From Haloarcula vallismortis ATCC 29715 (GTDB lineage: Archaea > Halobacteriota > Halobacteria > Halobacteriales > Haloarculaceae): DNA of 64,000 bases. Within the stretch, counting starts at the first letter, position 1, and every line of letters starts with the position of its first letter. The notes under the pieces were generated by a model, which made no database searches, had not been told where the DNA came from, and was given only the letters and a program-made list of their open reading frames with translations. The position numbers and the translations under genes were made by a program. This document shows positions 11,802-61,370 of the stretch, piece after piece. The stretch covers positions 1 to 64,000 of the forward strand of contig NZ_AOLQ01000054.1 of NCBI RefSeq assembly GCF_000337775.1, read 5' to 3'.

Positions 11802-11952
11802 GCCCCCCTCAAACCGTAATCCGATTACTGACGACGAGCCCTTGCTCGACTGCATACCTCTGATGTCTGAAATAGAATAGTTTTAGGCATAGTCTCAATT
11901 TTAGGGGGTTTATACAATGGAACTATAGACTATCGCACCGCAACCCAATCAT

Positions 11953-15852: not shown

Positions 15853-16731
15853 TTAGCCGAGCCGCGTCCGTAACCGAGCGCCGAGCCAGTCGTTCGTGAC
15901 GACCAGCACAAACACGGCGACGATGGCGGTCGAGAGCTTCCCGTACTGCAACCGCTGAATAGTGATGACGAGATAGTACCCGACGCCGCCCGCACCCACG
16001 AACCCAAGGATGGCGGCCGACCGGACGGTGCACTCCCAGCGGTACAGCGTGTACGATGCGACTGTGGGCGTCACCTGTGGGACCATCCCGTGACAGACCG
16101 CCTGCAGGCGCGTCGCGCCACTCCCGGCAACTGCCTCGGTCGTCATCGGGTCCGTGTCTTCGAGGAAATCAGCGTACAGCTTTCCGAGGACACCGGCGTT
16201 GTGAACCGCCAGCGCGAGCACACCTGCAAACGGGCCGAGACCGATAGCGGTGACGAACAGGAATCCCCAGACGATGCCGGGGACAGAGCGCAGGAAGCTG
16301 AGTACGGTTCGGCTAGCGTGATAGAGCCCGCGCCCGACGGCGATACGGCTGGCTGAGGCGTTCCTGTACAGCGGGCCGCGATGGGTGACGGTGGCGGCAC
16401 TGGTCAGACCGAGTGGGACGGCAAGTACGACAGCGAGCGAGGTCCCGACAACGCTGATAGCCAATGTCTCGACGACAGCCCACAGCAGACCGTCTCGAAG
16501 ACTTCGTCCCAGCAGGTATTCACGGCTACTCTCCGGAGGGATACCCTCGGCGACGAATGCGACCATCTGCTCGCGAGCCCCGGCGGCGAACAGGGCCATC
16601 GGGTCCACTTCGGCGATCCACGCCGCGACGGCCAGTATGACACAGCCGCCGAGTAGTGTCGTGAGCTGGCGTTTCGACAGTCCGGGAGCAGCGTGCTGGG
16701 CAGCGTCTGGCCCGCTATATTTCTCAGACAT
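15853..16731 (-). CDS. phnE: PhnE-like ABC transporter permease
   Basis: A 292-residue inner-membrane permease of a phosphonate/phosphate-type importer. It has about six hydrophobic segments and the BPD permease domain from residue 80 on. The EAA-like loop reads [30 protein letters not shown] (conserved EA..AxGAxxxQ....VxPQ). The start at 16731 overlaps the ATPase stop as ATGTCTGA. A longer frame upstream would run deep into the ATPase gene and is unlikely. With the ATPase and binding protein it forms a three-gene operon in the order D-C-E. No C-P lyase or phosphonatase gene is in the window, so the cargo could be phosphate, phosphite, phosphonate or something else. Confidence 0.85.
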
Positions 16732-17545
16732 ACCGCGGAACCGGAGCCCCGCCCTCCTTTTTCGCCCCCGTTCGCTCGGCGTCGGTATTCGGTGTGGATG
16801 CGCCCGCTGCAAAGAGGGCTTCCAGTTGCTCGTCGGCCACCGCTGATGCGGGCGCATCAAACTTGATACGGCCGCCAGCCACGCCGACAATCCGCTCGAA
16901 GTGCTCCAGTGCTATGTGAACATCGTGGAGGACGGTGATCAGCAGCTCCCCGTCTATGGCGGCGTCGAGCACGTCGATAATGTTCTGACGGGAGCTGGGG
17001 TCGAGGTTCGCCGTCGGCTCATCGGCCAACACGACCTCGGCATCCTGCATGAGAGCACGTGCGAAGGCGACCCGCTGGCGTTCGCCGGCACTCAACGATT
17101 TCACGGGGACATCGGCCCGTTCGACTAGCCCGACGGCATCGAGGCGTTCGAGCGCTGGCTCTGGGTATCTGGGGAGCAGTGGTTCGATGAAGCCACGGAG
17201 CCAGGACAGGCCTCCGATTTGCCCAGTCAGGACATTCGACAATACCGTCCGCCGGTCGACGAGCGTTTCCCCTTGATACGCAAGCGTCGCAGCCGAACCC
17301 GTAACGGTGCTCCCGTTGAACGTCACTGTGCCTGCGTTGGGACGTAACGTGCCGGCTGCCAGTCTGAGGAGCGTGGTCTTGCCGGCGCCCGACGGGCCGA
17401 TGACGGCGACCCGTTCACCGGGAGCCAAACTGAGCGAGACATCCCGCACCGCGACGTTCTCCCCGAATCGCTTGGTGACACTGTCGAAGACGAGTCCGTG
17501 CCCTGACTGCTGTTTCTCCGACTGTGCCGTGTGCTCGTTTTTCAC
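16724..17545 (-). CDS. phnC: PhnC-like ABC transporter ATP-binding protein
   Basis: A 273-residue ATPase energising the adjacent PhnE-like permease. Motifs: Walker [10 protein letters not shown] (about 54-62), Q-loop [13 protein letters not shown], signature LSAGERQR (about 150), Walker [15 protein letters not shown] and the H-loop HDVHIALEH. The GTG start overlaps the TGA of the binding-protein gene (GTGA) and the stop overlaps the permease start, so all three are translationally coupled. Confidence 0.9.
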
Positions 17546-18417
17546 CCGTCGCCTCCCTGCTCGATGCCAGCCATCTTGACAGCTGTTTCCAGCGAGGTGA
17601 ACGCGTCGTGGCTCACCGCGACGTATTTGTCGACGGCTTGCTGGTCGAGAATGTCCGTTCGCCCTTTCGAATCGAGCGTCGTGAACGCTGTCTGGACAGC
17701 GTCCGTAGTCGTCCCCTCAAGGGAGGGGGCGACGGCCCACGGATAATCCGGGAAACCGGGAGTTCGCCACAGCTCTTGCACCCCTTCAACGGCGTCGTCT
17801 GCGAGCAATCTGTCGTAGATGCGAGCGTTCAGCGCCCCGACGACCCCGTCTGTCCGACCAACTGTCTCTGCCGTTGCGTCGTGGGCACCGACGTGGGTGA
17901 CCTGCGCGAATGCGTCGGTAGGGAGACCGTACTCCGTCTGAAGATGATACGTCGGCATCACGGTCCCGCTGGTCGAGAGCGGGTCGCCGAACACCAGTTC
18001 GGTCTCGCCTGCAGTTTCGACTACGTCCGCCATCTCTGTCAGGTCACTGTCCGACGGCGCGATGAACACGGAGTGCCACTCCGTCTGTTCGTTCCGTGAC
18101 CCGACAGCGACTGGCTCTGCACCCGCCCGACGATGCGCGAGGATGTAGGACACGCCGCCGTAGTAGGCAATATCGACCTGCTCCGCGACCATTGCCTGTA
18201 CCATCCCGGCATAGTCAGCCGCTGTGCGTAGCTCGGTTTCGACATCGAGTTCCGTTGCCAGATACGCTGCGAGTTCAGTGTTCTGTTCAATGGCGGTGTC
18301 CGGGTCTACGTCGGGCACGACGCCAACCGTTAGGGTCGGGCTCGGCGTCCCTCCGAGACAGCCCGACAGTGAGAGCGCTGCTGCTGTACCCAGGAACTCA
18401 CGCCTCGTGGGTCGCAT
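17542..18417 (-). CDS. phnD: PhnD-like substrate-binding lipoprotein
   Basis: A 291-residue extracytoplasmic binding protein. The N-terminus [20 protein letters not shown] carries a twin-arginine motif and a lipobox with Cys20, so it is exported by Tat and anchored by lipid. The mature part has the PhnD pattern ([30 protein letters not shown], then [22 protein letters not shown] and [15 protein letters not shown]). The Met at 18417 is preferred over an upstream in-frame start because it gives the Tat signal directly. A 12-bp inverted repeat lies 36-66 bp upstream. Real ligand unknown. Confidence 0.85.
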
Positions 18418-18452
18418 TATGCTTCGATGCGAGTCGCCGGGCTTGAAACTTG

Positions 18453-18483
18453 CGTGGGCCACACCCCGGCTGTGTGGCCCACG
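18453..18483. promoter_or_regulatory. Perfect 12-bp inverted repeat with GGCCACAC / GTGTGGCC arms
   Basis: CGTGGGCCACAC (18453-18464) and GTGTGGCCCACG (18472-18483) flank a 7-nt CCCGGCT spacer. It lies after the ridA stop and just before phnD. It could be a ridA terminator hairpin, but no T-run follows and its core matches the GCCACAC motif seen at other promoters here, so an operator for phnDCE is also likely. Confidence 0.6.
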
Positions 18484-18919: not shown

Positions 18920-19537
18920 TCACAGGCCGTCTCGGCGGTCGGCGAACTCGGTAAAGTCATCGTCGGTGTCGATATCCCAGCGGATTCCGGGGTCCGAAAC
19001 CTCGATGAACGCTGTCTTCTCGTTGGTGTCGATGATGTCTCGACCACCGCGGTCGCCGGAGACCGAGGCGAGGGCATCGAAATGGCAGCCGTCGAAAAGC
19101 ACCGGATTGCCCCGCGTCCCCCCGTGTGTGGGAACGACAATGGTTGCCGATTCTGTACGGTACGTCTCGATAAGCGCCTCGATGGTTTCGACGCGGACGA
19201 ACGGCATATCGCCCAGCAGGAACAGAGCAGCGTCCCAGCCGGCCGAACGAGCGTACTCGACGCCGTGTCGAACGGACGTACTCTGGCCGGTTGCGTACTG
19301 GGCATTGTGACGAATCGAAAGGGAAAGCCCATCCAGCGCCTCGGCAACGGCCACGCTTTCGTGTCCGAGGACGGCGACAGTATCCGAGAGCGATGACTCA
19401 CGGGCGGTTTCGGCTACCTGCCGGACGACCGCTGTTCCGTCGAGAGTCGCCAGCAGTTTGTTCCCAGATTCGTACCGTTCGCTTCGCCCCGCGGCGAGGA
19501 TAACGCCACCGACTCCGGGCAGGTGCCGCTCTGTCAT
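18920..19537 (-). CDS. MocA-like molybdenum cofactor nucleotidyltransferase
   Basis: A 205-residue GT-A-fold nucleotidyltransferase resembling MocA, which attaches CMP to molybdopterin in hydroxylases of the xanthine dehydrogenase family. The signature is GVILAAGRSERYESGNKLLATLDG (11-34), followed by FLLGDMPFVRVETI near 108 and GGTRGNPVLFDGCHFDALASVSGDRGGR near 140. It sits among xdh accessory genes (YqeC, XdhC-YqeB, SelD), which supports the cofactor role over sugar or MobA-type functions. Confidence 0.8.
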   Translation of the reverse strand: MTERHLPGVGGVILAAGRSERYESGNKLLATLDGTAVVRQVAETARESSLSDTVAVLGHESVAVAEALDGLSLSIRHNAQYATGQSTSVRHGVEYARSAGWDAALFLLGDMPFVRVETIEALIETYRTESATIVVPTHGGTRGNPVLFDGCHFDALASVSGDRGGRDIIDTNEKTAFIEVSDPGIRWDIDTDDDFTEFADRRDGL

Positions 19538-19579: not shown

Positions 19580-20365
19580 TCAGTCATCGTTCTCTTCCGC
19601 TTGCAGATCCGCTGTTGAGACCACTTCACAGACATTCGACGCGAACGACGTAATGACGCCCAGAGAACACCGCGCTGTCTGTGAAAGCGCGTGCGTGAGC
19701 ACGTCCGTCGCGATACGTTCTTGGGTTTCGGTGTCCGCTTTGTTGACCAGCGGAATCACAGACGCCTTTGCTGGCGCGTTCCGGAGGCCACCGTCTGGAT
19801 GCGTGAGCACTGTTCCAACGGCTTCTGGGGTAATTGTATCGCCCATCTTTAGGCCGGTGATATCTGCGACTCGCTCCGGCCGGTGAACCACGGCCGTCGT
19901 CAGTGGCTCACCGACTGCGGCGACCGAAGCGACCGGGACGACGTGGCTGGCCGTGTTCGGGACGACTGGTTCCCTATCGCCGGGCGCTTTGAACTCCCGC
20001 TTGCGTGCCCCGTCAGCCTTGATGAGGAGCCAGTCGAACAGTCCGGCACTGGATAGCTGCTCTACCACACTCGCCTCGAAGCCGCGAACCTTCCGGTCGA
20101 CTCGCGCCGGGTCGGCTACATCCTCGCGGGCGACGGCAAGCGGTGGGTCGTGTGCCTTGAGGTCGGCGCGCCACTCGTCCGGGCCGGTGAGCGTCAGCGG
20201 CAGGTCAGGCGGCGGTGGCATCGCTGTTGTCGTCGTGTAGCCCACGTCGTACCCCTTGTCGGCTCCTTCGACGGTCAACTGTCCCATCGCGGTTTTCTTC
20301 CCGCCGGCCCCGACAAAGGCGACAGCGGCGCTGGAGCCCAAGCCCAGCGCAGCAGCCAGATGCAT
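19580..20365 (-). CDS. yqeC: YqeC-like selenium/molybdenum hydroxylase accessory protein
   Basis: A 261-residue protein of the YqeC family, which co-occurs with selenium-dependent molybdenum hydroxylases. The N-terminus has a P-loop-like VAFVGAGGKKTAMGQL (about 15-30), then YTTTTAMPPP, and LLIKADGARKREFKAPGDREPVVP near 115, the best-conserved family segment. The Met at 20365 is chosen because a TATA-like element (acaaatagc, minus strand, around 20389-20395) is 26-28 nt upstream. The gene is divergent from the TusA-SelD pair across a 94-bp promoter region. Confidence 0.8.
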   Translation of the reverse strand: MHLAAALGLGSSAAVAFVGAGGKKTAMGQLTVEGADKGYDVGYTTTTAMPPPPDLPLTLTGPDEWRADLKAHDPPLAVAREDVADPARVDRKVRGFEASVVEQLSSAGLFDWLLIKADGARKREFKAPGDREPVVPNTASHVVPVASVAAVGEPLTTAVVHRPERVADITGLKMGDTITPEAVGTVLTHPDGGLRNAPAKASVIPLVNKADTETQERIATDVLTHALSQTARCSLGVITSFASNVCEVVSTADLQAEENDD

Positions 20366-20410
20366 ACCGTCGCTGCGCGGAAGACACACAAATAGCTTAC
20401 CGGGGCAACG

Positions 20411-20421
20411 GCGTGTGGCGG
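20411..20421. promoter_or_regulatory. GCGTGTGGCGG motif in the yqeC/tusA divergent promoter
   Basis: CGTGTGGC at 20412-20419, the complement of the GCCACACG motif, lies between the outward-facing TATA-like elements of yqeC (about 20389-20395) and of the TusA-like gene (about 20428-20434). Placement next to both cores suits an operator acting on both directions. Confidence 0.45.
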
Positions 20422-20459
20422 CGATAGCGTTTTTGTGACCTGGTGACACACGTGACGGT

Positions 20460-20708
20460 ATGGCCCGCGTAGATGTTCGTGGTGAAATCTGCCCCCGGCC
20501 GGCGCTCATCGTCCGGCAGGCGCTTTCGGACCTCGATACCGGCGAGACCCTCGTCGTGCGTGGCGACTATCCACCGGCTGAGGAGAACCTCCGGCGGATG
20601 TGTACGACGCACGGCATCGACGTGACGACCGCGGAGACCGCTGGCGAGTCCGACGAGTTCGAACTCGAACTGCAGGTAACGGAACTGGCGTCGCTTTCGG
20701 AGGCCTGA
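20460..20708 (+). CDS. TusA/SirA-like sulfur (selenium) carrier
   Basis: An 82-residue TusA-fold protein with the hallmark CPRP motif (Cys11), where a persulfide or perselenide is held on Cys11. The rest follows the family (ALIVRQALSDLDTGETLVVRGDYPPAEENLRRMCTTHGI). It lies 2 nt before selD and so is surely cotranscribed. TusA-like proteins of the YedF type accompany selenium genes in many genomes; here, with DsrE/F/H-like genes nearby, it may deliver selenium or sulfur to SelD or to the molybdenum site. The delivery direction is inference. Confidence 0.85.
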   Translation: MARVDVRGEICPRPALIVRQALSDLDTGETLVVRGDYPPAEENLRRMCTTHGIDVTTAETAGESDEFELELQVTELASLSEA

Positions 20709-20710
20709 GT

Positions 20711-21751
20711 GTGGGGGCTGACGCAGAGACCGATAGCGATGCCGAGACGACGCGCCTGACGGAGTACACGGAACTCCACGGTTGCTCCTGTAAAGTCGGC
20801 CAGGGCGACCTCGATTCGCTGCTCGCTGATGCCGGCCTGACCGGTGAGAGCGACCCCTTGCTGTTCGGTATCGGCGAGGATGCCGCTGCCCGGAAACTCA
20901 CTGACGACATCGCGCTGGTCTCGACGGTGGATTTCTTCACTCCTATCGTCGACGACCCGTACGATTTCGGCCGTGTAGCTGCCTGTAACGCTGCCAGCGA
21001 CGCGTTCGCCACGGGCGCGGTCGAAAACGTTGACTGCCTCGTCGTCCTCGGATTGCCGCGAGAACTAACCGACAACGCTGCCCCGATCCTCGCAGGCATG
21101 GCCGACGCACTGGACACGATGGACGGCGTCATCGCCGGTGGCCACACCATCATGAGCCCGTGGCCGTTCGCCGGCGGAGCCATTTCGGCGACAGCACGGC
21201 CCGAGGCCTTGCTCACTTCACAGGGGGCCAGCCCCGGCGACCAGCTCTACCTGACCAAACCAATCGGGACGCAGCCGGCTATGGGAGCGACCCGTGTGAC
21301 CGACGAGCAGTTCGTCGAGACCGTCACTGACGCCACTGACCGCCCGCTCGACACCATTGCTTCAGAGGCAATCGAGTGGATGACGACGCCGAACCGGGAC
21401 GCAGTGAGCGCGTGCCGCGAGCACGCGACCGCGGCAACCGATATTACCGGCTTCGGCCTCGCTGGCCAGAGCCGCGTGGTGGCCGCCCGTTCGAACGTCG
21501 GCATCGAACTGACACACCTCCCGGTCATCGCAGGAACGCCCGACCTCTCGACACTTTTCGGGTACGGGCTAACCGACGGAGAGAGCGCAGAGACCAGCGG
21601 CGGCCTGTTCGTCTCCGTCCCACCGACAGCGACTGATGCCGTCGAATCGGCGTTCGACGACGCTGGCGTGTTCTATCGAGCGGTTGGCCACGCTACGGCC
21701 GGACGTGGCGTCACGATTGACGACCCGACCCTCGAAGAAGTCCGTCGCTAA
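20711..21751 (+). CDS. selD: Selenide, water dikinase (selenophosphate synthase)
   Basis: A 346-residue SelD, which makes selenophosphate from selenide and ATP. The N-terminal active site reads HGCSCKVGQGDL: Cys25 takes the place of catalytic Cys/Sec17 of E. coli SelD and Lys28 that of Lys20. GIGEDAAARKLTDDIALVSTVDFFTPIVDDPYDFGRVAACNAASDAFATGA carries the ATP/Mg-binding residues, and ATDITGFGLAGQSRVVAARSNVGIEL the second conserved block. Start GTG at 20711 is chosen because it follows the TusA-like stop by 2 nt; the frame is open further 5' but overlaps that gene. No SelA, SelB or selenouridine synthase gene is in the window, so this is the 'orphan' SelD type tied to molybdenum hydroxylases. 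Confidence 0.9.
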   Translation: MGADAETDSDAETTRLTEYTELHGCSCKVGQGDLDSLLADAGLTGESDPLLFGIGEDAAARKLTDDIALVSTVDFFTPIVDDPYDFGRVAACNAASDAFATGAVENVDCLVVLGLPRELTDNAAPILAGMADALDTMDGVIAGGHTIMSPWPFAGGAISATARPEALLTSQGASPGDQLYLTKPIGTQPAMGATRVTDEQFVETVTDATDRPLDTIASEAIEWMTTPNRDAVSACREHATAATDITGFGLAGQSRVVAARSNVGIELTHLPVIAGTPDLSTLFGYGLTDGESAETSGGLFVSVPPTATDAVESAFDDAGVFYRAVGHATAGRGVTIDDPTLEEVRR

Positions 21752-21768
21752 CACCGATTAGGAGTGTT

Positions 21769-23349
21769 CTACCGCAGCCGAAGCGCCGCCTCAAGCACGC
21801 CACCACCGAGACACAGTGCCTTGTCGGAGATCTTCGTTGGATCGACAGACTTGCCACGGGGGTCGACATCGCCGAGCTTAGTGCCCTCGCTGACGCTGAG
21901 GCCCGTGTGGACGAGGCCGCGAACCAGCCCGTCTATCTCAGTCTCGACCGGCAGGCCGTCGACTCTGCCGACCACATCGCCGGCTGTGACACTATCGCCG
22001 ATGGCGACTGTCGGTGTCCACTCACCATCGGTCGGTGCGCGGAGCACCCGCTCGTGAGTGTAGCCGCGCCGCTCGCCGGGTTCGCCGTCGTACTCGCTCG
22101 CGGTCCCCTCGTAGAACACTCGACCGAGTTCGTGCCCGCGGTCAGTCTCGACGACTGCGTCCACGTCCTCGTCAGCCTCGAAGCCGGGTCCCATCCCGAC
22201 CACTACGTCGGCGTCCCCCCGGCGCGTGCCGGTGTCGAACGTCCCTTTTGCCATGATAGCGTCGACGAGGACTGTGGCGTCGAGTTCGTCGGCGACGGTC
22301 GCTTCAGGGTCAACGAGTACCGGCACGACATCGTCGGCAAGCAGTGCAAGCGCTTCGTCGATGTCCGTCGCTGCCCGGCCAGTGACTCCCTCAACTGTCA
22401 CCTCGTTCTCGTACAGTGCAGAGCCGAAGGCGACCGCCCGCCGGACCACCGTTGGCTGTTGGACCTCTGTGACGATGACCGGAAAGCCAGCCTGCTTGAG
22501 ACGATAGACCACGCCGCTCCCAAGGTCGCCGCCGCCGCGGACGACGACGAGCTTATCGAGGTTCAGGCGCGTGGCCCGTTTGCCGGTCGCGTCGTGGCGG
22601 TCCATGGTGATCTCGGAGAGAATCGAGAGCGCGACGGCGGCCGGCCCGCTCCCACCGAGGTCGAGTCCGACCGGGGTTCGGACCCGGCTGAGGTCCCGAC
22701 GGGCGTATCCCGACTCGGCGAGTGAGTCGAGGACGTGGTCGGCCTTTGTCTCGCTGGCGACGAGTCCAACGTAGCCAGCGTCACCGTCCAGCGCCGCGGC
22801 GACGGCCTCCTGATCGAACGTCCCGCTTCGCGTCGCAACAGCTACGGCTGTCTCCGTCCCCATCGGCAGGTCACCAAGCACATCGCCGTAGTCGCCATGC
22901 ATCACGTCGGTATCGCTGGGGAATTGCGCTGGGTCGGCGTACGCCTCGCGGTCGTCAACGACGGTGACGGCGTAGCCCAGCCGTTCCGCCAGCGGGGCCA
23001 GTTCGGCACTGATGTGGCCGCCGCCAGCGATATAGAGCCGTGCCTGCCCGCGAACGCGGTCGATGAACACGTCCATCTCGCCGCCACAGACCATGCCCGT
23101 GTTACCGCCACGTTCGAGTTCGTACGTCCGGATGCCGGGGTCATCAGCCCCGGCAAGCACCGACCGGGCATCCTGGACGGCGAGGTGTTCGACCGTCCCA
23201 CCTCCGATGGTCCCGTACTCGTCGTCGCTTGTGACTATCATCTTGTCTCCGACGTCCCGTGGTGTACTGCCGTCCTTACGGACGATAGTCAGGAGCGCCG
23301 CCGGCTCCCCTTGGGCAGCCAGTTCGTCGAGTCGCTCGAACAGGCTCAT
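21769..23349 (-). CDS. XdhC-YqeB fusion protein
   Basis: A 526-residue fusion of two accessory proteins. Residues 1-250 are XdhC/CoxI-like: KDGSTPRDVGDKMIVT and TIGGGTVEH at the start, a Rossmann GGGHISAELAPLAERLGY at 109-126, and SGPAAVALSILSEI near 234-247. XdhC carries sulfurated molybdenum cofactor to xanthine dehydrogenase. Residues 262-526 match YqeB of the selenium-dependent molybdenum hydroxylase system, with a second Rossmann GGGDLGSGVVYRLKQAGFPV at 272-291. The two are usually separate genes. The start at 23349 overlaps the DsrH-like stop (ATGA), giving a coupled operon with the DsrE/F/H genes and the hydroxylase upstream. Confidence 0.85.
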   Translation of the reverse strand: MSLFERLDELAAQGEPAALLTIVRKDGSTPRDVGDKMIVTSDDEYGTIGGGTVEHLAVQDARSVLAGADDPGIRTYELERGGNTGMVCGGEMDVFIDRVRGQARLYIAGGGHISAELAPLAERLGYAVTVVDDREAYADPAQFPSDTDVMHGDYGDVLGDLPMGTETAVAVATRSGTFDQEAVAAALDGDAGYVGLVASETKADHVLDSLAESGYARRDLSRVRTPVGLDLGGSGPAAVALSILSEITMDRHDATGKRATRLNLDKLVVVRGGGDLGSGVVYRLKQAGFPVIVTEVQQPTVVRRAVAFGSALYENEVTVEGVTGRAATDIDEALALLADDVVPVLVDPEATVADELDATVLVDAIMAKGTFDTGTRRGDADVVVGMGPGFEADEDVDAVVETDRGHELGRVFYEGTASEYDGEPGERRGYTHERVLRAPTDGEWTPTVAIGDSVTAGDVVGRVDGLPVETEIDGLVRGLVHTGLSVSEGTKLGDVDPRGKSVDPTKISDKALCLGGGVLEAALRLR

Positions 23350-23591
23350 ACGAAGCTCTTGACCTCCTGTTCGACGAGACTCTCGACTACGGCGTCGTAG
23401 GATATCCGGTCGATGTCCGGCGAGAGCGAGACGCCACGTACGTCCACGTCTCTTGCGACAGCTGAGACGGGGGCGTCGATACCTGGTGTGAGGTAGACGC
23501 CGTCCTGAATCAGAACGACGTGTGCCTCGGGGTCCCCGGCGGCGGTGCGCAGCCCGATTTCTGCCATCGGTTTGTCGATGAGATATAGCAT
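23346..23591 (-). CDS. DsrH/TusB-like protein
   Basis: An 81-residue protein of the DsrH/TusB family (MLYLIDKPMAEIGLR, then VVLIQDGVYLTPG, the family core). TusB forms a TusBCD complex with DsrF- and DsrE-like partners, both encoded immediately upstream. The start at 23591 lies 2 nt after the preceding stop and its own stop overlaps the next start. A longer open frame is present but would overlap the DsrF-like gene. The complex accepts sulfur relayed by TusA in bacteria; here it may handle sulfur or selenium. Confidence 0.8.
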   Translation of the reverse strand: MLYLIDKPMAEIGLRTAAGDPEAHVVLIQDGVYLTPGIDAPVSAVARDVDVRGVSLSPDIDRISYDAVVESLVEQEVKSFV

Positions 23592-23593
23592 TG

Positions 23594-23947
23594 TCAGAAG
23601 TCCAGTGTTCGGTCGGCATCGCGGATGCGAGCGGTAACGCGGTCGTCCGACCAGACGACCACGTCGTCGGCGATTTCGCTCTCGTCGACACCGCGCTCGG
23701 CCATCGCCGCGCCGTCCGCGACCATCTGTCCGCCCTGTTCTTCCAGATCGGAAACGTGTCCGTCCATGTTGAGCGCCTCGCGGTCGACGGCTTCCCGAGC
23801 GCCGTACACGCCGTTTTGAGTGAATACCACGGTCACGTCGTGCATGTCGAAGCCGGCAGCGACGCCGCGGGCCGCCCGCAGTCCCTCCGGGATGTGGACT
23901 CGGCCACAGGGCGCACGGGTGAGCAGCACGACGACATCCCGTTTCAT
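23594..23947 (-). CDS. DsrF/TusC-like DsrE-family protein
   Basis: A 117-residue DsrE-fold protein: MKRDVVVLLTRAPCGRVHIPEGLRAARG, then VTVVFTQNGVYGAREAVDRE, typical of the TusC/DsrF subgroup. The start overlaps the stop of the DsrE-like gene (ATGA). It lacks a clear conserved catalytic cysteine in the C-terminal half, as expected for the non-catalytic partner; the single cysteine is Cys14. Confidence 0.8.
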   Translation of the reverse strand: MKRDVVVLLTRAPCGRVHIPEGLRAARGVAAGFDMHDVTVVFTQNGVYGAREAVDREALNMDGHVSDLEEQGGQMVADGAAMAERGVDESEIADDVVVWSDDRVTARIRDADRTLDF

Positions 23948-24315
23948 AGCGAAACCACCCGGTCGGCCTCGCCGATGATGTCTGCCAGGTCAGGGAGCAG
24001 TCCGACTTCGACGCCGTCGGGGTAGTCGGCAGGCGCGTCGATGCCGCGTGCGTCGACACAGAGCCCACAGCAGATGACCTCCGCCCCGTCCGCGATGAGT
24101 TCCTGAAACTTCTCTGTCGGCATCTCGTCGTACAGGCCGCTATCCGAACAGCCGGGCAGCGTCTGGTCCGCGACAGGAACGAGCGCGCCGTCGAGATAGT
24201 GGAAGTAGCTCACCTCGTGGCCCTGATCCAGCGCCGCCCGCCCCAGCTCGTAGGCGGTGCGCCACCGCTCACTGTCGAAGGGACCCCCTGTCAGCAGAAA
24301 CCCGATGTACGCCAT
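23944..24315 (-). CDS. DsrE/TusD-like sulfur-transfer subunit
   Basis: A 123-residue DsrE-fold protein, the probable catalytic member of the trio. It starts MAYIGFLLTGGPFDSERWRTAYELGRAALDQGHEV and has a CCGLCVDARGI segment near residues 85-95 where TusD carries its active cysteine. A TATA-like element (minus strand, around 24346) is about 30 nt upstream of the ATG, so the transcript is probably leaderless and this is the first gene of the dsrEFH/xdhC-yqeB operon. A longer open frame begins further upstream but would cross that promoter. Confidence 0.8.
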   Translation of the reverse strand: MAYIGFLLTGGPFDSERWRTAYELGRAALDQGHEVSYFHYLDGALVPVADQTLPGCSDSGLYDEMPTEKFQELIADGAEVICCGLCVDARGIDAPADYPDGVEVGLLPDLADIIGEADRVVSL

Positions 24316-24357
24316 ACTGTCGAAATTTTCTCGAACAGCTCTTAATAGTTTGCTCGG

Positions 24358-24382
24358 CACACGAAAAAACACTCCGTGTGTG
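24358..24382. promoter_or_regulatory. CACACG / CGTGTG element upstream of the dsrE operon
   Basis: CACACG (24358-24363) and CCGTGTGTG (24374-24382) form an inverted arrangement directly upstream of the dsrE TATA element. It is one of the recurrent GTGTG motifs of this island; its position next to the core promoter suggests a repressor or activator site. Confidence 0.45.
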
Positions 24383-24415
24383 ATATTACTCGGAGGAAAA
24401 CTGCCCGAAACCAAC

Positions 24416-26896
24416 CTATTTACGGTCGCCAGATCGGTCGTCGAGCGCCGTCTTCACGTCGTCTGCGGTGAACGGTAGCTCGGTCAGCCGGACGCCGACG
24501 GCGTCGCGGATCGCGTTCGAAAGCGCTGGCGGAACCCCGTTTGTCGGGAGTTCCGCGATAGACTTTGCGCCGAACGGACCCGTGGGTTCGTGTGTTTCGA
24601 CGAGAACTGTCTCCATTTCTGGGTGGTCCGTCGTCCGCGGCATTCCGTACTGGCGAAAGCCGAGCACTTCGGGGTTCCCGTCGTCGTCGAAGGTCAGATC
24701 GCCGCTCGTGGCGTATTCGAGGCTCATGTGCTCGCCGCCCTCTATCTGGCCCTCGACCAGTGCGGGGTTGATGGCGACGCCGCAATCCGCCGCGAACGCC
24801 AGCTTGTTGAGTTCGTATTCGCCGGTCTCCGTATCGACAGTTACGTCGACGAACTGCGCACCGTAGGGCGGTGGGCTCTCGTCGGTTGAGTGGTTGCCGT
24901 CCCCGAGGATGTGTTCGCGCTCGTCGTCGCCGTAGGTCGCTTCGTAGCCGATCTCCTCCAGCGATACGCGGTTCCCGGTTCGCTCGCTGTACACGCTGCC
25001 GTCGCCGGTGTCGAGTGCTTCTGGCGACTCCCCGAGCAGTTTCGACCCCCACTCCAGTAACCGCTCTTTCGCGTCTTCGGCGGCCTTCTTTACCGCTCGA
25101 CCGCTGATGTACGTCGTCGAGGATGCGTACGCGCCGTAATCGAACGGCGTCAGGTCGGTGTCGGCGGCGATGACGACGACATCTTCTGGAGTGCAGCCCA
25201 GTACCTCGGCGGTGATCTGGGAGAACATCGTGTCCGCGCCGGTACCGGTGTCGACCCCGCCGACCTGCAGGTGGAAGCTCCCGTCCTCGTTCATCTGTAC
25301 CTGTGCCGCGCCGAGTTCCTTCCCCGCAACGCCGCTTCCCTGGGCGATGAGCGCCATTCCGACCCCGCGCTCACGGTGGTCCTCGTCTGGTTGTTCGAGC
25401 TCGTCGTAGCCGATTGCTTCCTTCCCGCGCTCGACACATTCGCGGATGCCACACGAGCGAATCTCGCGGGTGAACCGGTCGCCGTCTTTCAGAATTGCGA
25501 CGCTCCGGTCGATGTCGCCCTCTCGCACCGCGTTCTGCAGGCGGAATTCGATAGGGTCGAAATCGAGCCGGCGGGCCACCTCGTCCATGTGTGCTTCGAC
25601 GGCGAAATGCCCCTGTGGAGCGCCGTAGCCCCGCATAGCCGCCCCCATCGGGAGGTTCGTGTGGACCACATCGCCAGAAAAGCGGACGTTCGGAACGCGT
25701 GGATAGAGCGGGAGCGGCTTCGTTCCGACGTTGTTCGCGACGGTCATGCCGTGGGTGCCGTAGGCCCCCGAGTTCGACAGCGTGTAGAGGTCCATCGCCT
25801 CGATATCGCCCTCGTCCGTCACGGCCGTCTTCATGCGCATCCGCATCGGATGGCGAAAGCGAAGCGCGGTGAACTCCTCCTGCCGGCTCATCTCCAGTTT
25901 GACCGGCCGGTCGGCCGCCAGATGCAATGCGAACGCTATCGGCTCGATTGCCATCTCCTGTTTCGACCCGAATCCAGCGCCGATTCGCGGCTTCTTCACC
26001 CGCACGTCGCGGATGGGAACGTCGAACAGGTGGGCTATCTGGCGGCGGGTGTGAAAGGGGACCTGCGTCGCTGTGATGAACGTGTGACGCTCGTCCTCGT
26101 CCGTGTAGGCGATGGTCGTGTGCGGTTCCGGGACGCAGTGGGACTGGTATGGCGTTTCCCACTCCGTCTGGACGACATGTCGGTCCGTCGCAGCCTCGGC
26201 TGTCTCGAACGCCGCGTCCACGTCCCCCAGTTCCCCGTCGAAGTGGGATTCGAGGTTTCTCGCGTAATCCGCGCCCGACTGCTTGTTTTCCACGTCGTCG
26301 GTTTCAAACAGTTGTGGCGCGTCCTCCGCAAGGGCTTCTTCGGGATCGAACACGGCGTCGAGTTCCCGGTACTCGATCTCGATCTTCCGTGCGGCTCGGT
26401 CGGCCGTTTCTGGGTCCTCAGCCGCCACTGCGGCGACTGGGTCGCCGACGAAGCGGACGTGCTCGCGTAACACGTTCAGGTCCCACGGGCTCGGCTCGGG
26501 GTAGGACTGGCCCGAACTGGAGTACAGCTTGTCCGGGACCACGTCGTCAAAGGGCGTGATGACGGCGCGGACGCCATCCATCGCCTCGGCGGCGCTCGTG
26601 TCGACTGATTCGACGTAGCCGTGGGCGATGTCACTGCGAACCACCTTCCCGTGAGCGAGGTCCGGAAACCGGTCGTGGTAGTCCGCCGTGTAGCGAGCCT
26701 CACCGGTGACGATCTTGCGCGCGTCGTCTTTCTCCTCGTTCACGGTAATGGCGTCGCGCTCGGATTCGGCCTTCCGGTCGGGTTCGCGTGCTACGTCCGC
26801 CTCTGCCTCTCCTTCAACTTCGGCAGAATCCGCTTCGTCTATCCCTGTCGTGTCTGACCGCCCGTCTGTCTCTCGGGCTCGGTCGGAATCACTCAC
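24416..26896 (-). CDS. Xanthine dehydrogenase-family molybdenum subunit, copy 1
   Basis: An 826-residue molybdenum-binding large subunit of the xanthine oxidase family. The first 50 residues are an acidic, low-complexity extension; the hammerhead domain begins near KIVTGEARYTADYHDRFPDLAHGKVVRSDIAHG. PRIGAGFGSKQEMAIEPIAFAL, MRGYGAPQGHFAVEAHMDE, GGVDTGTGADTMFSQITAEVLG and FDYGAYASSTTYISG contact the cofactor. The C-terminal GPFGAKSIAELPTN carries the candidate catalytic Glu of the family. Start GTG 26896 overlaps the iron-sulfur subunit stop (GTGA). No FAD subunit gene is nearby. Substrate is probably a purine or other N-heterocycle. The copy is paralogous to 27587-30034. Confidence 0.9.
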   Translation of the reverse strand: MSDSDRARETDGRSDTTGIDEADSAEVEGEAEADVAREPDRKAESERDAITVNEEKDDARKIVTGEARYTADYHDRFPDLAHGKVVRSDIAHGYVESVDTSAAEAMDGVRAVITPFDDVVPDKLYSSSGQSYPEPSPWDLNVLREHVRFVGDPVAAVAAEDPETADRAARKIEIEYRELDAVFDPEEALAEDAPQLFETDDVENKQSGADYARNLESHFDGELGDVDAAFETAEAATDRHVVQTEWETPYQSHCVPEPHTTIAYTDEDERHTFITATQVPFHTRRQIAHLFDVPIRDVRVKKPRIGAGFGSKQEMAIEPIAFALHLAADRPVKLEMSRQEEFTALRFRHPMRMRMKTAVTDEGDIEAMDLYTLSNSGAYGTHGMTVANNVGTKPLPLYPRVPNVRFSGDVVHTNLPMGAAMRGYGAPQGHFAVEAHMDEVARRLDFDPIEFRLQNAVREGDIDRSVAILKDGDRFTREIRSCGIRECVERGKEAIGYDELEQPDEDHRERGVGMALIAQGSGVAGKELGAAQVQMNEDGSFHLQVGGVDTGTGADTMFSQITAEVLGCTPEDVVVIAADTDLTPFDYGAYASSTTYISGRAVKKAAEDAKERLLEWGSKLLGESPEALDTGDGSVYSERTGNRVSLEEIGYEATYGDDEREHILGDGNHSTDESPPPYGAQFVDVTVDTETGEYELNKLAFAADCGVAINPALVEGQIEGGEHMSLEYATSGDLTFDDDGNPEVLGFRQYGMPRTTDHPEMETVLVETHEPTGPFGAKSIAELPTNGVPPALSNAIRDAVGVRLTELPFTADDVKTALDDRSGDRK

Positions 26897-27471
26897 TGGT
26901 CGCCCTCCATGCAGCCGCAGTCGGTGCGCAAACACTCGATCTCGGCGGTGGTTCCGCTGTCGCTATTGAGAGTCGGCCCACCGTCCGTGGCGACGGCTGT
27001 CCCGTCGTCCATCTGTTCGGCGGCGTCCAGCACCGCCGCGACGATTTTCTTGTAGCCGGTACACCGACAGAGGTTGTCCGACAGCGCCTCGCGGACCTCC
27101 TGTTCGGTCGGGGCCGGATTCTCTTCCAGCAGCGCCGTCGAGCGCATAATCATCCCAGGAATGCAAAACCCGCACTGCAGCGCAGTATTATCTACGAACG
27201 CCTGTTGCACCGGATGCAGGTCGTCTTGTGTACCCAGACCTTCGATTGTCTCGACGGCTGCGCCCTGCACTGTCGTCACCGGCTTGACGCAGGATTTCAC
27301 CGGCTCCCCGTCGACGCGCACCGTACAGAAGCCGCACGCGCCAGTGTCACATCCCCGCTTCGCGCCGGTGTACCCGTTCCGTCGAAGAACGTCGAGAAGC
27401 GAATCGGATTTCGACGCTTCGACAGTCCGTTCCACACCGTTCAGTTCCAGTTCGATTTCCATATGGCTCAT
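26893..27471 (-). CDS. Xanthine dehydrogenase-family iron-sulfur subunit, copy 1
   Basis: A 192-residue small subunit with two [2Fe-2S] domains, which passes electrons out of the molybdenum site. The plant-type cluster has Cys41, Cys46, Cys49 and Cys61 (GCDTGACGFC...C). The second has Cys100, Cys103, Cys135 and Cys137 (CGFC...CRC). All eight ligands are intact. It ends with an unusual tail containing Cys180, Cys185 and Cys187 (DCGCMEGDQ), absent from ordinary small subunits. Start at 27471 (MSHMEIEL) is preferred but 27462 (MEIEL) is equally possible. Stop overlaps the large subunit's GTG. Confidence 0.9.
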   Translation of the reverse strand: MSHMEIELELNGVERTVEASKSDSLLDVLRRNGYTGAKRGCDTGACGFCTVRVDGEPVKSCVKPVTTVQGAAVETIEGLGTQDDLHPVQQAFVDNTALQCGFCIPGMIMRSTALLEENPAPTEQEVREALSDNLCRCTGYKKIVAAVLDAAEQMDDGTAVATDGGPTLNSDSGTTAEIECLRTDCGCMEGDQ

Positions 27472-27586
27472 CAGCTCGCTGGCTATGTCAGGTACGTGAC
27501 GAACAGAAGGGTAAATAGCTATCGCGGATTTGCGATATGGCACGCCGACACACCGGTCTTTGCCGTGACTGGCTCCGTGTCCCGAG

Positions 27587-30034
27587 TCAGGCTTCGCGCT
27601 CGTCCAGTTTTGACTCGATTTTCTCGGCGGTAATGGGCATTTCCCGGATACGGACTCCGACGGCATCCCGGACGGCGTTTGACAGCGCCGGCGGGACCGT
27701 GTTAGTCGGGACTTCGGCGACTGATTTCGCGCCAAACGGACCGGTCGGTTCGTGGGTCTCGACCAGAATTGACTCGATGGGCGGCGTCTCGGTTGCCGAC
27801 GGCAGGCCGTACTCGTCGAAGTCCGTCACCTCAGCCCGCCCCTCGTCGTCGAGCGTGATTCCGTCGCTGACGGCCATCTCGTAGCTCATGTGATTTGCGC
27901 CCTCGATCTGGCCCTCGGCCATGCCGGGGTTGATGGCGACGCCGCAGTCGACCGCGACAACCAGTTTATGAACGTCGAACTCGCCGGTGGTTTCGTCGAC
28001 GGTCACGTCGGCAAATTGCGCGGCGAATGGTGGGGGGCTCTCCTCGGTGCAGTGGGTCCCCTTTCCCAGAATGTGTTCGCGCTCGTCGTCGCCGTAGGCG
28101 GCCTCGTAGCCGATGTCTTCAAGCGTGACGGACTTGCCGCTGGCCTCGCTGTATACGGTTCCGTCACCGGTCTCCAACTCCTCGACTGGCTCCTCTAGCA
28201 GTTTCGACCCCCAGTCGAGAATTCGTGCTTTCGCATCTTCCGCGGCCTTCTTGACGGCCATACCGCTGATGTACGTCGTCGAAGAGGCGTACGCCCCGTA
28301 GTCGAAGGGCGTCACATCAGTATCGGAGGACTTGACGACTATGTCGGACTCATCACAGCCCAGTACTTCCGCGGCAATCTGGAGGAATGCCGTGTCAGCG
28401 CCCGTTCCGATGTCGACGCCCCCGACCTGCAGGTGGAAGCTCCCGTCCTCGTTCATCATTATCTGGGCGGCCCCGAGTTCGTCCCCGGCGACGCCGGTCC
28501 CCTGAGCAGATAGCGCCATCCCGATGCCGCGGTGCAGATGGTCTTCTTCGGGCTGTTCGAGGTCGTCGTAGCCGATTGCTGCCTTTCCGCGCTCGATACA
28601 CTCGTCGAGGCCACACGAGCGAATACGTCGGTTCGCCCCTTCGCCGCCCATCATCCCCGCAATCTCGTCGAGGTCACCGACCTCCATGTGATGCCGGCGT
28701 CGGAATTCGATAGGGTCGAGACCGAGGTCGCGGGCGACCTCGTCGAGATGGCCTTCAAGCGCGAGCGTCCCCTGTGGCGCGCCGTAGCCCCGCATCGCGC
28801 CGGTCTGTGGTGTGTTCGTGTGGACAATATCGGCCTCGAAGCGGGCGTTCGGGACCTTCGAGTACAGCGGCATCGGTTTGCTCCCGACGTTGCCAGCGAC
28901 GGTCATGCCGTGGCTGCCGTACGCGCCGGTGTTCGACAGGGCGTACAGGTCGATGGCCTCGATGTCACCGTCGTCGGTGACGGCTGTCTTCGCTTTGACC
29001 GTCATCGGATGGCGCGAGCGCATCGCGTAGAACTCCTCCTCGCGGCTGGCTTCGTAGAGGACCGGCCGGTCGGTGGCAAGCGACAGCGCGAGCGGAATCG
29101 GCTCGACGACCATCGCCTGTTTCCCGCCGAACCCGCCGCCGACGCGTGGCTTCTGCACGCGGATGTCACGGATGGGGATGTCGAACAGGTGGGCGAGCTG
29201 TCTCCGGGTGTGGTTGGGCACCTGTGTGCTGGTGATGAGAACGTGGCGGTCGTCCTCGTTCGTGTACGCCAACGAGGTGTGTTTCTCGACGTTGGCGTGG
29301 GACTGCCGGATGGTTTCCCATTCGCTCTCATGCACGTGGGCCTCGCCGCCGAGCGCCGAATCCACGTCACCCAGCTCGCCCCCGATATGGGACATCCGGT
29401 TGCGGTCGTAGTCGTGGCCGACGATCTCGTTCTCGACCTCGCCGCCCTCGAACAACTGCGGCGCGTCTTCGTCGAAGGCCGCCTCCGGGTCAGTGACGTA
29501 GTCGTACTCCTCGTAAGATACCTTGATGGCCTCGACGGCGTCCGTTGCAGTCGCCCGGTCCTCGGCGGCGACGGCGGCAATTGGGTCGCCGATGTAGCGG
29601 ACGTGTTCGTTCAGCACCTGCATGTCCCACGGGCTCGGCTCGGGATATGACTGTCCGGCGCTGGTGTATTTTGTGTTCGGCACTGCGTCGGATTCGGGTG
29701 TCAAGACCGCGTCGACGCCATCCATCGCCTCGGCCGCGCTCGTGTCGATATCGGTCACGCGGCCGTGTGGAATTTCGCTTCGGACGACCGCTGCGTACGC
29801 GAGGTTCGGATATCGCTCCTCGTAGTCGGCGGTGTACTTCGCCTGCCCGGTGACGAGCTTTCGGTCGTCGTACTTCTCCGCCCGGTGGGAGACGCTGTCG
29901 CGCTCGTCGGGTGCCTTGTCGTTGTTCTCGGGTTCGTCCCATTCGAGCGGGTGCTCCTCGTCCCGCCCGTCTTCGATGGCCTCTGACTGGGAGGCCGTGC
30001 CCCCGTCGGCCTTGGCCGTCTCGTCGTCACTCAT
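27587..30034 (-). CDS. Xanthine dehydrogenase-family molybdenum subunit, copy 2
   Basis: An 815-residue molybdenum subunit closely related to the copy at 24416-26896, with the same blocks: KLVTGQAKYTADYEERYPNL, PRVGGGFGGKQAMVVEPIPLAL, MRGYGAPQGTLALEGHLDEVA, GGVDIGTGADTAFLQIAAEVLG, FDYGAYASSTTYISG and GPFGAKSVAEVPTN with the candidate catalytic Glu. It also has an acidic N-terminal extension of about 50 residues. The start at 30034 overlaps the small-subunit stop by 8 nt (ATGAGTGA). The two large subunits probably arose by duplication, and different substrates or one selenium-dependent and one sulfur-dependent version are possible. Confidence 0.9.
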   Translation of the reverse strand: MSDDETAKADGGTASQSEAIEDGRDEEHPLEWDEPENNDKAPDERDSVSHRAEKYDDRKLVTGQAKYTADYEERYPNLAYAAVVRSEIPHGRVTDIDTSAAEAMDGVDAVLTPESDAVPNTKYTSAGQSYPEPSPWDMQVLNEHVRYIGDPIAAVAAEDRATATDAVEAIKVSYEEYDYVTDPEAAFDEDAPQLFEGGEVENEIVGHDYDRNRMSHIGGELGDVDSALGGEAHVHESEWETIRQSHANVEKHTSLAYTNEDDRHVLITSTQVPNHTRRQLAHLFDIPIRDIRVQKPRVGGGFGGKQAMVVEPIPLALSLATDRPVLYEASREEEFYAMRSRHPMTVKAKTAVTDDGDIEAIDLYALSNTGAYGSHGMTVAGNVGSKPMPLYSKVPNARFEADIVHTNTPQTGAMRGYGAPQGTLALEGHLDEVARDLGLDPIEFRRRHHMEVGDLDEIAGMMGGEGANRRIRSCGLDECIERGKAAIGYDDLEQPEEDHLHRGIGMALSAQGTGVAGDELGAAQIMMNEDGSFHLQVGGVDIGTGADTAFLQIAAEVLGCDESDIVVKSSDTDVTPFDYGAYASSTTYISGMAVKKAAEDAKARILDWGSKLLEEPVEELETGDGTVYSEASGKSVTLEDIGYEAAYGDDEREHILGKGTHCTEESPPPFAAQFADVTVDETTGEFDVHKLVVAVDCGVAINPGMAEGQIEGANHMSYEMAVSDGITLDDEGRAEVTDFDEYGLPSATETPPIESILVETHEPTGPFGAKSVAEVPTNTVPPALSNAVRDAVGVRIREMPITAEKIESKLDEREA

Positions 30035-30605
30035 CGCACCCACCTCCACAGCAACCGGTCGACTCAGATCCGCGCAGCGGCGCACTGACCGACTGGCCGC
30101 CGTCCGCGGCGACCGACTGCGCCCCCTGTATCCGTTCTGCCGCGTCGAGAACGGCTTCGACCGGCTTCTGATAGCCGGTACAGCGACAGACGTTGTCGTC
30201 CAGCGCCTCCCGGACCTCCTGCTCGGTTGGGTCGGGGTTCGAATCCAGCAGTGCCACCGCCTGAATCACCATCCCCGGGATACAGAACCCGCACTGGACG
30301 GCGAAGTTATCGACGAACGCCTGCTGGACCGGGTGCAGGTCGTCCTGTGTCCCGAGCGCTGCGACGGTCTGTATCTCACTCCCATCGGCGTCCTCCGCGG
30401 CCATTCCGCAGGCCATCACGACTTCGCCGTCAACGAACACCTTCGATGCGCCACAGGTCCCGCCGTCGCAACCACATTTCACGCCGATGTAGCCGTGTTG
30501 TCTCAAAACCGTCGCCAAGTCGTCCGCCGACCCGGCTTCGACTGTCGCCCGCTCGCCGTTGATCGTGAGTTCGATATCCACAGAGTTCCCTCCAGTTTTT
30601 GGCAT
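30027..30605 (-). CDS. Xanthine dehydrogenase-family iron-sulfur subunit, copy 2, with altered cluster site
   Basis: A 192-residue small subunit. The second [2Fe-2S] site is normal (Cys105, Cys108, Cys140, Cys142). The plant-type site reads CGCDGGTCGAS...AC: Cys46, Cys51 and Cys66 are present, but the third ligand is Ser54 instead of Cys, and an extra Cys44 lies two residues before Cys46. The nucleotide sequence confirms a serine codon, so this is no frame slip. Like copy 1 it ends in a cysteine-rich tail (Cys185, Cys186, Cys190). The Met at 30605 is used; GTG at 30581 would be an alternative. It is the first gene of its pair. Confidence 0.9.
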   Translation of the reverse strand: MPKTGGNSVDIELTINGERATVEAGSADDLATVLRQHGYIGVKCGCDGGTCGASKVFVDGEVVMACGMAAEDADGSEIQTVAALGTQDDLHPVQQAFVDNFAVQCGFCIPGMVIQAVALLDSNPDPTEQEVREALDDNVCRCTGYQKPVEAVLDAAERIQGAQSVAADGGQSVSAPLRGSESTGCCGGGCDE

Positions 30606-43052: not shown

Positions 43053-43283
43053 GGGACGCCATCCCACCTCCTGTCTTTTCAATCCACCTACTAGAATCCT
43101 TATACCAATATATGTGTTTAACTTTTCCCAAGATACCTATTCGTATGTCGTGTGAATGTGTGATATTCGTCTGATATGCGACCTGTATACTTTCGAACTG
43201 CAACATCTTGACTTGACAGTGTGTCGGATCTGAGCGCAAACTGATACTGCGCTGGTCCGTGGCGGGGCAACTGTGCGATACCG

Positions 43284-46045: not shown

Positions 46046-46102
46046 GGTATAACGGCCCGGACGAATGAGGAAAACAGTTGGTGTGTGAGACGCCACATCT
46101 CG

Positions 46103-46113
46103 GCCACACACGG
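46103..46113. promoter_or_regulatory. GCCACACACGG motif in a divergent promoter
   Basis: It lies in the 142-bp gap between the divergently transcribed allantoinase-like gene and the 46188 deaminase. It is the complement of CCGTGTGTGGC, a near match to the elements at 40521 (CCGTGTGTGTGGC) and 32115 (CCGTGTGGC). Confidence 0.5.
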
Positions 46114-61235: not shown

Positions 61236-61351
61236 CGGCGCATAGAACACCTCGCCATCGGAGGTAGCCTGAGGGATTCTTGACACGGACGCTGAAGCCG
61301 GCGTTTGATATCGGTTGTTCTGGGTCGGCGAATCGGAACAATTATGTTCTT

Positions 61352-61367
61352 TTTAGGCCAGCCTAAA
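61352..61367. promoter_or_regulatory. DtxR/SirR-type iron box, second copy
   Basis: TTTAGGCCAGCCTAAA is the reverse complement of the 58108 element. It sits between a TATA-like attatgt (61341-61347) and the ATG at 61371, the same geometry as the first box, so the binding-protein gene has its own iron-controlled promoter. Confidence 0.7.
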
Positions 61368-61370
61368 ATA

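Follow-up and report, generated by a model that had tools for sequence, protein, structure and literature searches.

The 64,000-nucleotide (nt) stretch of Haloarcula vallismortis ATCC 29715 analyzed here (contig NZ_AOLQ01000054.1, positions 1 to 64,000; hereafter the window, in forward-strand coordinates) is part of a 3.9-Mb genome in 69 contigs (G000). An earlier note, made from the letters of this DNA alone, had placed a gene cluster for selenium-dependent molybdenum hydroxylases (SDMH) at 19580-30605. The cluster was confirmed at this place, and every gene that had been named is present (Table 1). On the minus strand, the order is 2Fe-2S subunit B, large subunit B, 2Fe-2S subunit A, large subunit A, DsrE, DsrF, DsrH, and a fusion of XdhC and YqeB, while the plus strand carries a TusA-like gene followed by the gene for selenophosphate synthetase (SelD). 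Beyond these, YqeC and then a MocA-like gene lie on the minus strand. No gene for a flavin adenine dinucleotide (FAD)-binding subunit was found within the block. SelD, the TusA-like protein, YqeC, XdhC-YqeB, and both molybdenum enzymes lie inside the range given in the note, the MocA-like gene lies just outside its start, and the three genes for DsrE, DsrF, and DsrH (23346-24315) had been overlooked.

The cluster and its selenium interpretation are already known, the latter being supported by inference. Positions 19580-30085 align over their full length to plasmid pNG700 of H. marismortui (87.6% DNA identity), in which the SDMH locus (pNG7234-pNG7246) has identical genes, order, and orientation; judged by sequence, the two strains belong to different species. 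This locus was reported by Haft and Self (PMC2276186) and by Zhang et al. in 2008 (PMC2432076), where SelD, a SirA/TusA-like protein, YqeC, YqeB fused to XdhC, a MocA-like protein, and the hydroxylases were named. The window thus holds an ortholog of the locus discussed in the published proposal, cited in the earlier note, that an orphan SelD serves selenium-dependent molybdenum hydroxylases. Its further statement that the gene details go beyond the published outline was mostly wrong, since each gene that it listed was in the 2008 tables. Later, Halobacteriales lacking selenocysteine (Sec) and selenouridine were described as all the archaea known to carry the selenium-cofactor trait, and YedF, a bacterial fusion of TusA and DsrE, was stated to be absent from archaea (Lin et al., PMC5322559). 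In the published accounts of the pNG700 locus that we consulted, we found no mention of the DsrEFH trio. RefSeq annotates two of the three trio genes of H. marismortui as "DsrE family protein" and one of those in Natrinema as "DsrH/TusB family." As judged from the genes, the new element appears to be this trio, which is strictly linked to SelD, coupled to yqeB, and a replacement for bacterial YedF.

Two members of the trio matched the Pfam DsrE family (72 and 39 bits; cut-off, 22.7), while the DsrH match of 24.0 bits fell just below its cut-off of 24.4. The NCBIfam models for TusD, TusC, and TusB matched the three proteins in that order, with 20, 24.5, and 23.6 bits against cut-offs of 89, 94, and 49. 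In DsrE, Cys82, Cys83, and Cys86 of the ICCGLC motif were invariant in all 22 haloarchaeal loci compared; DsrF and DsrH had no conserved Cys. Structure matches of DsrE, to 2hy5 and TusD (2d1p), were weak, and a single-chain fold of the protein was discarded as a poor model (predicted local distance difference test [pLDDT] score, 57). DsrEFH of sulfur oxidizers and TusBCD of Escherichia coli are sulfur carriers. The trio shares with them the E-F-H order and the active-site Cys in the DsrE/TusD subunit. However, its DsrH-like subunit lacks a Cys, its scores remain below the curated cut-offs, and its linkage is to selenium genes, not to sulfite reductase or tRNA thiolation.

The arrangement of these genes was strictly conserved. 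In all 22 loci, dsrE and dsrF overlap by exactly 4 nt, as do dsrH and xdhC-yqeB, and dsrF and dsrH are spaced by 1 to 8 nt. In four genomes, the cassette is on the strand opposite to the hydroxylases, with the overlaps still kept. As the 4-nt overlaps persist even in loci whose cassette is separated from the hydroxylase genes, the trio belongs with YqeB, and the overlaps indicate translational coupling between the trio and the XdhC-YqeB fusion. During review of the 2008 Haft and Self paper, one referee had remarked that the haloarchaeal arrangement seemed not to be co-transcribed (PMC2276186). The coupling answers this remark in part, since yqeB is placed for co-transcription with the hydroxylases in most genomes. 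From its layout, tusA-selD (same strand; gap of ~2 nt in the window) is a unit separate from trio-yqeB, and both units were present in all loci checked.

The position of tusA also bears on an alternative order of events, in which TusA and DsrEFH would act upstream of SelD, gathering and reducing selenium (e.g., from selenite) and either feeding selenide to SelD or storing the excess, without contact with XdhC-YqeB. Indeed, TusA adjoins SelD on the same strand, bacterial YedF is also found beside SelD, and a function in selenium redox chemistry or detoxification was suggested for YedF (Lin 2015, PMC5322559). However, the stop/start overlaps of DsrEFH join it to XdhC-YqeB and not to SelD in 22/22 loci, including those in which the cassette has moved away from the hydroxylases, and we consider a role before SelD unlikely.

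Among 391 haloarchaeal genomes, SelD and YqeB (both above their curated cut-offs) and an intact DsrE (E < 1e-50) were each detected in 30, and the three genome lists were identical (Fisher p ~1e-45, a value that ignores the relatedness of the genomes). These 30 SelD-positive genomes cover nine genera in five families. In the genus of the window, 15 of 24 genomes carry the block, and the other nine lack SelD, YqeB, DsrE, and the hydroxylases. The recurrence of the same gene block in 30/391 genomes argues that it did not arise by chance. In a separate scan of one genome per species with YqeB, all 18 judgeable haloarchaeal loci had the trio, with TusA beside SelD. The block was also observed in a Halodesulfurarchaeum metagenome-assembled genome (L163; the genus label is that of a sulfur-respiring group), with the hydroxylases on the opposite strand.

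SelU and the archaeal Sec synthase SepSecS were detected in none of the 30 SelD-positive genomes, with positive controls, while bacterial SelA was not searched for; SelB remained under its cut-off in the H. vallismortis genome. The earlier note had likewise seen neither SelB nor a selenouridine synthase, and it had correctly read SelD as a Cys rather than a Sec enzyme, the catalytic motif HGCSCK being invariant. SelD is an orphan here, accompanied by neither a Sec nor a selenouridine pathway. This, along with SelD above its cut-off with a catalytic Cys and YqeB and YqeC above theirs, is the gene profile expected of the SDMH trait. A candidate tRNA-Sec was rejected, as the only RF01852 match over the cut-off in the genome is a tRNA-Ser(UGA) in an array of 26 tRNA genes. 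The array itself, a nearly full set on one strand within 3.6 kb (L149, contig C4, 6165-9733), is probably viral.

The earlier note had described two xanthine dehydrogenase-type enzymes. Two large and two 2Fe-2S subunits are indeed encoded (24416-30581). However, large subunits A and B were under every NCBIfam equivalog cut-off, and with 301 and 283 bits they are not members of the selenium-dependent xanthine dehydrogenase model TIGR03311 (cut-off, 830 bits). From these scores, "xanthine dehydrogenase" is a label for A and B at the family level only. Both belong to the fold family of 4-hydroxybenzoyl-coenzyme A reductase (1rm6), xanthine dehydrogenase (1jro), and the molybdenum-selenium nicotinate dehydrogenase (3hrd), with which they have the motifs of the molybdenum site (GGFGxK, TQ, RGYGAPQ, and GAKSxxE) in common. 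In contrast to those systems, the block lacks a FAD subunit, and the Glu that follows GGFGGK in bovine xanthine oxidase is a Gln in the window hydroxylases.

Hydroxylase B (76 to 100% identical) was restricted to the SelD-positive genomes and present in 30/30, and A was present in 29/30 (absent from G182). A single related hydroxylase pair, ~60 to 65% identical to A or B, was found in 23 SelD-negative haloarchaea. This pair is not accompanied by SelD, YqeB, YqeC, TusA, or an intact trio and lies near a xanthine permease, often with a separate, distant XdhC. In a tree rooted with four more distant sequences as the outgroup, A, B, and the SelD-negative enzymes each formed one clade with high support; the branching order among the three was not settled. 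The orphan SelD reading of the earlier note, itself already published, is strengthened by these comparative data, because the 30 genomes with SelD, among the 391, are also those with YqeB, SelU and SepSecS are absent from them, and the hydroxylases of SelD-positive and SelD-negative genomes are separate clades.

Three SelD-negative genomes of one genus (G129, G247, and G390) still have a dsrE remnant (34, 16, and 20 codons long) next to a hydroxylase of the SelD-negative type (L142, 2317-2468; L129, ~11891-11938; and L131, ~11822-11881, respectively). In G129, the remnant joins codons 37 to 52 of xdhC, as expected for what would be the scar of an internal deletion of the selenium block.

The SelD-negative clade also bears on the possibility that the trio and TusA form a sulfur relay for an ordinary sulfido ligand, with the hydroxylases being normal sulfur enzymes and SelD serving something else. 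The known sulfur-carrying function of DsrEFH and TusBCD and the weak DsrE matches to 2hy5 and 2d1p would fit such a relay. However, the closely related hydroxylases of the 23 SelD-negative haloarchaea mature in the absence of the block, arguing against a need for the trio in providing an ordinary sulfido ligand. Furthermore, the trio tracks SelD in 30/30 genomes, in which searches for SelU and SepSecS found no other known use of SelD. A sulfur relay is therefore quite improbable.

The 2Fe-2S subunits of the two hydroxylases differ. Subunit B has KCGCDGGxCGAS where subunit A and the homologs in the PDB alignment have GCxxxxCGxC, i.e., the third Cys of the cluster is replaced by Ser and a new Cys stands two residues ahead of the first. 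This pattern was present in every SelD-positive locus inspected, including the most divergent, while subunit A and the SelD-negative enzymes are canonical. Cys-rich C-terminal tails of the 2Fe-2S subunits were rejected as a selenium feature, as they are variable and also occur in SelD-negative genomes. It could be argued that only B, with its odd iron-sulfur subunit and its presence in every SelD-positive genome, depends on selenium, and that A, missing from one genome and canonical in its iron-sulfur subunit like the SelD-negative enzymes, is a normal sulfur enzyme traveling along. However, A too forms its own clade restricted to SelD-positive genomes, and A and B have residues in common that set them apart from the SelD-negative clade, e.g., Val537 and Gly539 of the QVGGVD loop (B numbering), making a restriction to B a doubtful explanation. 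Some of the differences between A/B and the SelD-negative clade also occur in the selenium-free outgroup, which is more distant, and we therefore propose none of these residues as a marker of selenium.

Selenium might instead be held on another small protein, leaving the hydroxylases selenium free. In Enterococcus faecalis, 75Se was found on a labile 30-kDa protein, and the hydroxylase link was then judged not strongly supported (Zhang 2008, PMC2432076). In contrast, the hydroxylase clades of SelD-positive and SelD-negative genomes are separate, and genetics in Clostridioides difficile, in which the use of xanthine and uric acid requires selD and yqeB, tie the trait to the hydroxylases (PMC11448449). 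We consider storage on a small protein very improbable.

Haloarchaea appear to use a stand-alone TusA and the DsrEFH trio in place of YedF, by analogy with the bacterial loci. TusA and DsrE are joined in the fusion protein but encoded separately in haloarchaea, where DsrF and DsrH accompany DsrE. None of the bacterial YqeB loci retrieved contained a DsrEFH trio, and many have YedF beside SelD. Around bacterial YqeB, 18 of 21 TusA matches were YedF fusions, in which the region of the CGxC motif is shared with haloarchaeal DsrE. CGxC has been described as the motif of the DsrE half of YedF (Lin et al., PMC5322559). In the fetched bacterial loci, YedF reads ..LLESEGVTILTCGTCLDFYGL.., and DsrE of the window reads ..ELIADGAEVICCGLCVDARGI... 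Both YedF motifs, CPxP (TusA) and CGxC (DsrE), were invariant in the 22 haloarchaeal loci, on two proteins. Cys11 (in CPRP) and Cys48 of the TusA-like protein were also invariant. No protein of the 30 SelD-positive haloarchaea exceeded the cut-off of the YedF model itself (TIGR03527), matching being limited to the TusA part, i.e., the N-terminal half of the model. E. faecalis (EF2563-EF2570) and relatives of Faecalibacterium and Gemmiger (L183-L229) resemble the window in their clustered SelD, YqeB, YqeC, XdhC, and hydroxylases, and their YedF likewise supplies a TusA domain and a CGxC DsrE domain. A second, more distant TusA-like gene was observed near 5'-deoxyadenosine deaminase or transporter genes in SelD-positive loci L102, L105, L113, L114, and L116.

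XdhC relatives bind the molybdenum cofactor and carry it to the enzyme. In the model of the YqeB half (pLDDT, 94.6), the N-terminal half is Rossmann-like, and the C-terminal part is a barrel-sandwich of the biotinyl/lipoyl-like type. The latter superimposes on BesA (4kku) with a root mean square deviation of 1.7 over 65 columns. No full-length relative of the YqeB model was found in the PDB, only partial matches. Together with the XdhC part, the model is consistent with a protein on which the cofactor stays bound during a change of chalcogen.

We favor, with a probability of roughly 0.6, the interpretation that the cluster represents the selenium-cofactor (SDMH) trait in its haloarchaeal form, with a TusA-DsrE relay to XdhC-YqeB. 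SelD would produce selenophosphate, and a thiol relay from TusA to DsrE would pass the selenium, bound to protein as selenide or perselenide, on to XdhC-YqeB. This protein would bind the molybdenum cofactor and swap its labile chalcogen ligand for selenium. The loaded cofactor would then be inserted into the two FAD-less, two-subunit molybdenum hydroxylases, which probably serve purine catabolism. Given the pairing of TusA with SelD and of DsrEFH with XdhC-YqeB, a relay from SelD/TusA via DsrE to XdhC-YqeB would be the simplest, and the stand-alone TusA and the trio would fill the role apparently held by YedF in bacteria. More tentatively, and with chances slightly below even, the relay through DsrE of a DsrEFH-like complex may be dedicated to installing the selenido ligand, having evolved for selenium as a split counterpart of YedF. 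Outside support for the favored interpretation comes from the C. difficile genetics above and from Methanococcus maripaludis, in which selenium depletion raises tusAD transcripts by ~4.5 log2, for which the authors had no explanation (PMC11097638).

Several points weigh against the favored interpretation. We found no selenium measurement on any haloarchaeal enzyme in the literature. DsrE, DsrF, and DsrH score 20 to 25 bits, under the curated TusD/C/B cut-offs, and the role of the trio is drawn from an analogy with YedF, which is itself biochemically uncharacterized. Sequence does not tell whether the relay acts before or after SelD. Finally, co-occurrence and conserved gene order could arise from transfer of the block as a unit, mostly on plasmids, without each gene sharing in a joint function.

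Table 1. Features of the selenium-molybdenum cluster and its surroundings in the window
Feature	Position	Strand	Remarks
PhnD/PhnC/PhnE-type ABC transporter	15853..18462	-	PhnE over its cut-off (223 bits); PhnC 174 bits (cut-off 266); PhnD 178 bits; candidate selenium-oxyanion importer
MocA/YgfJ-like molybdenum cofactor cytidylyltransferase	18920..19537	-	TIGR03310 151 bits, below cut-off 186.45
YqeC	19580..20365	-	TIGR03172 203 bits (cut-off 73)
Stand-alone TusA-like sulfurtransferase	20460..20708	+	Pfam TusA 60 bits; CPRP
SelD, selenophosphate synthetase	20711..21751	+	GTG start; TIGR00476 270 bits (cut-off 125)
XdhC-YqeB fusion, putative molybdenum cofactor insertion/selenium maturation protein	21769..23349	-	TIGR03309 366 bits (cut-off 220)
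DsrH/TusB-like subunit	23346..23591	-	No conserved Cys
DsrF/TusC-like subunit	23594..23947	-	No conserved Cys
DsrE/TusD-like subunit	23944..24315	-	ICCGLC (CGxC) motif, Cys82/83/86
Molybdenum hydroxylase large subunit A	24416..26896	-	Clade A, SelD-positive genomes only
2Fe-2S subunit A	26893..27462	-	Canonical Cys ligands
Molybdenum hydroxylase large subunit B	27587..30034	-	Present in every SelD-positive genome
2Fe-2S subunit B	30027..30581	-	Third Cys of plant-type cluster is Ser; extra Cys
Xanthine permease (PbuX)	41646..43082	-	TIGR03173 438 bits, over cut-off; purine context
Allantoinase/dihydropyrimidinase-like hydrolase	44702..46111	-	Under equivalog cut-offs
SsnA-like aminohydrolase	46188..47486	+	TIGR03314 263 bits, under cut-off

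TIGR03310 was the best family for the MocA/YgfJ-like gene, although its curated cut-off was not reached, and the position of this gene is kept in nearly all SelD-positive loci. Further left lies the PhnCDE-type ATP-binding cassette (ABC) transporter, which adjoins the block in Haloarcula and is near it in several other SelD-positive loci. It was rejected as a proven selenate importer, as PhnD scored 175 bits on the putative selenate-binding model TIGR04553 (cut-off, 250), about equal to its score on the generic phosphonate-type model. To the right of the cluster are genes for a Zn hydrolase, the xanthine permease, and the allantoinase-like and SsnA-like proteins, and farther on an RPE65/carotenoid-oxygenase family gene (56564-58024, plus strand) is followed by an iron-type ABC transporter (59188-62582).

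Of the routes by which selenium is incorporated, its placement on molybdenum in such enzymes has recently been described as the least understood (PMC11448449). The cluster is a compact archaeal system, amenable to genetics, in which selenium apparently has no other use, with natural controls in the sister enzymes of selenium-free relatives and in genomes that have lost the block. It adds three unstudied genes, strictly linked to SelD and coupled to yqeB, as a testable missing link in selenium delivery. If true, a dedicated selenium relay would explain the choice of selenium over sulfur.

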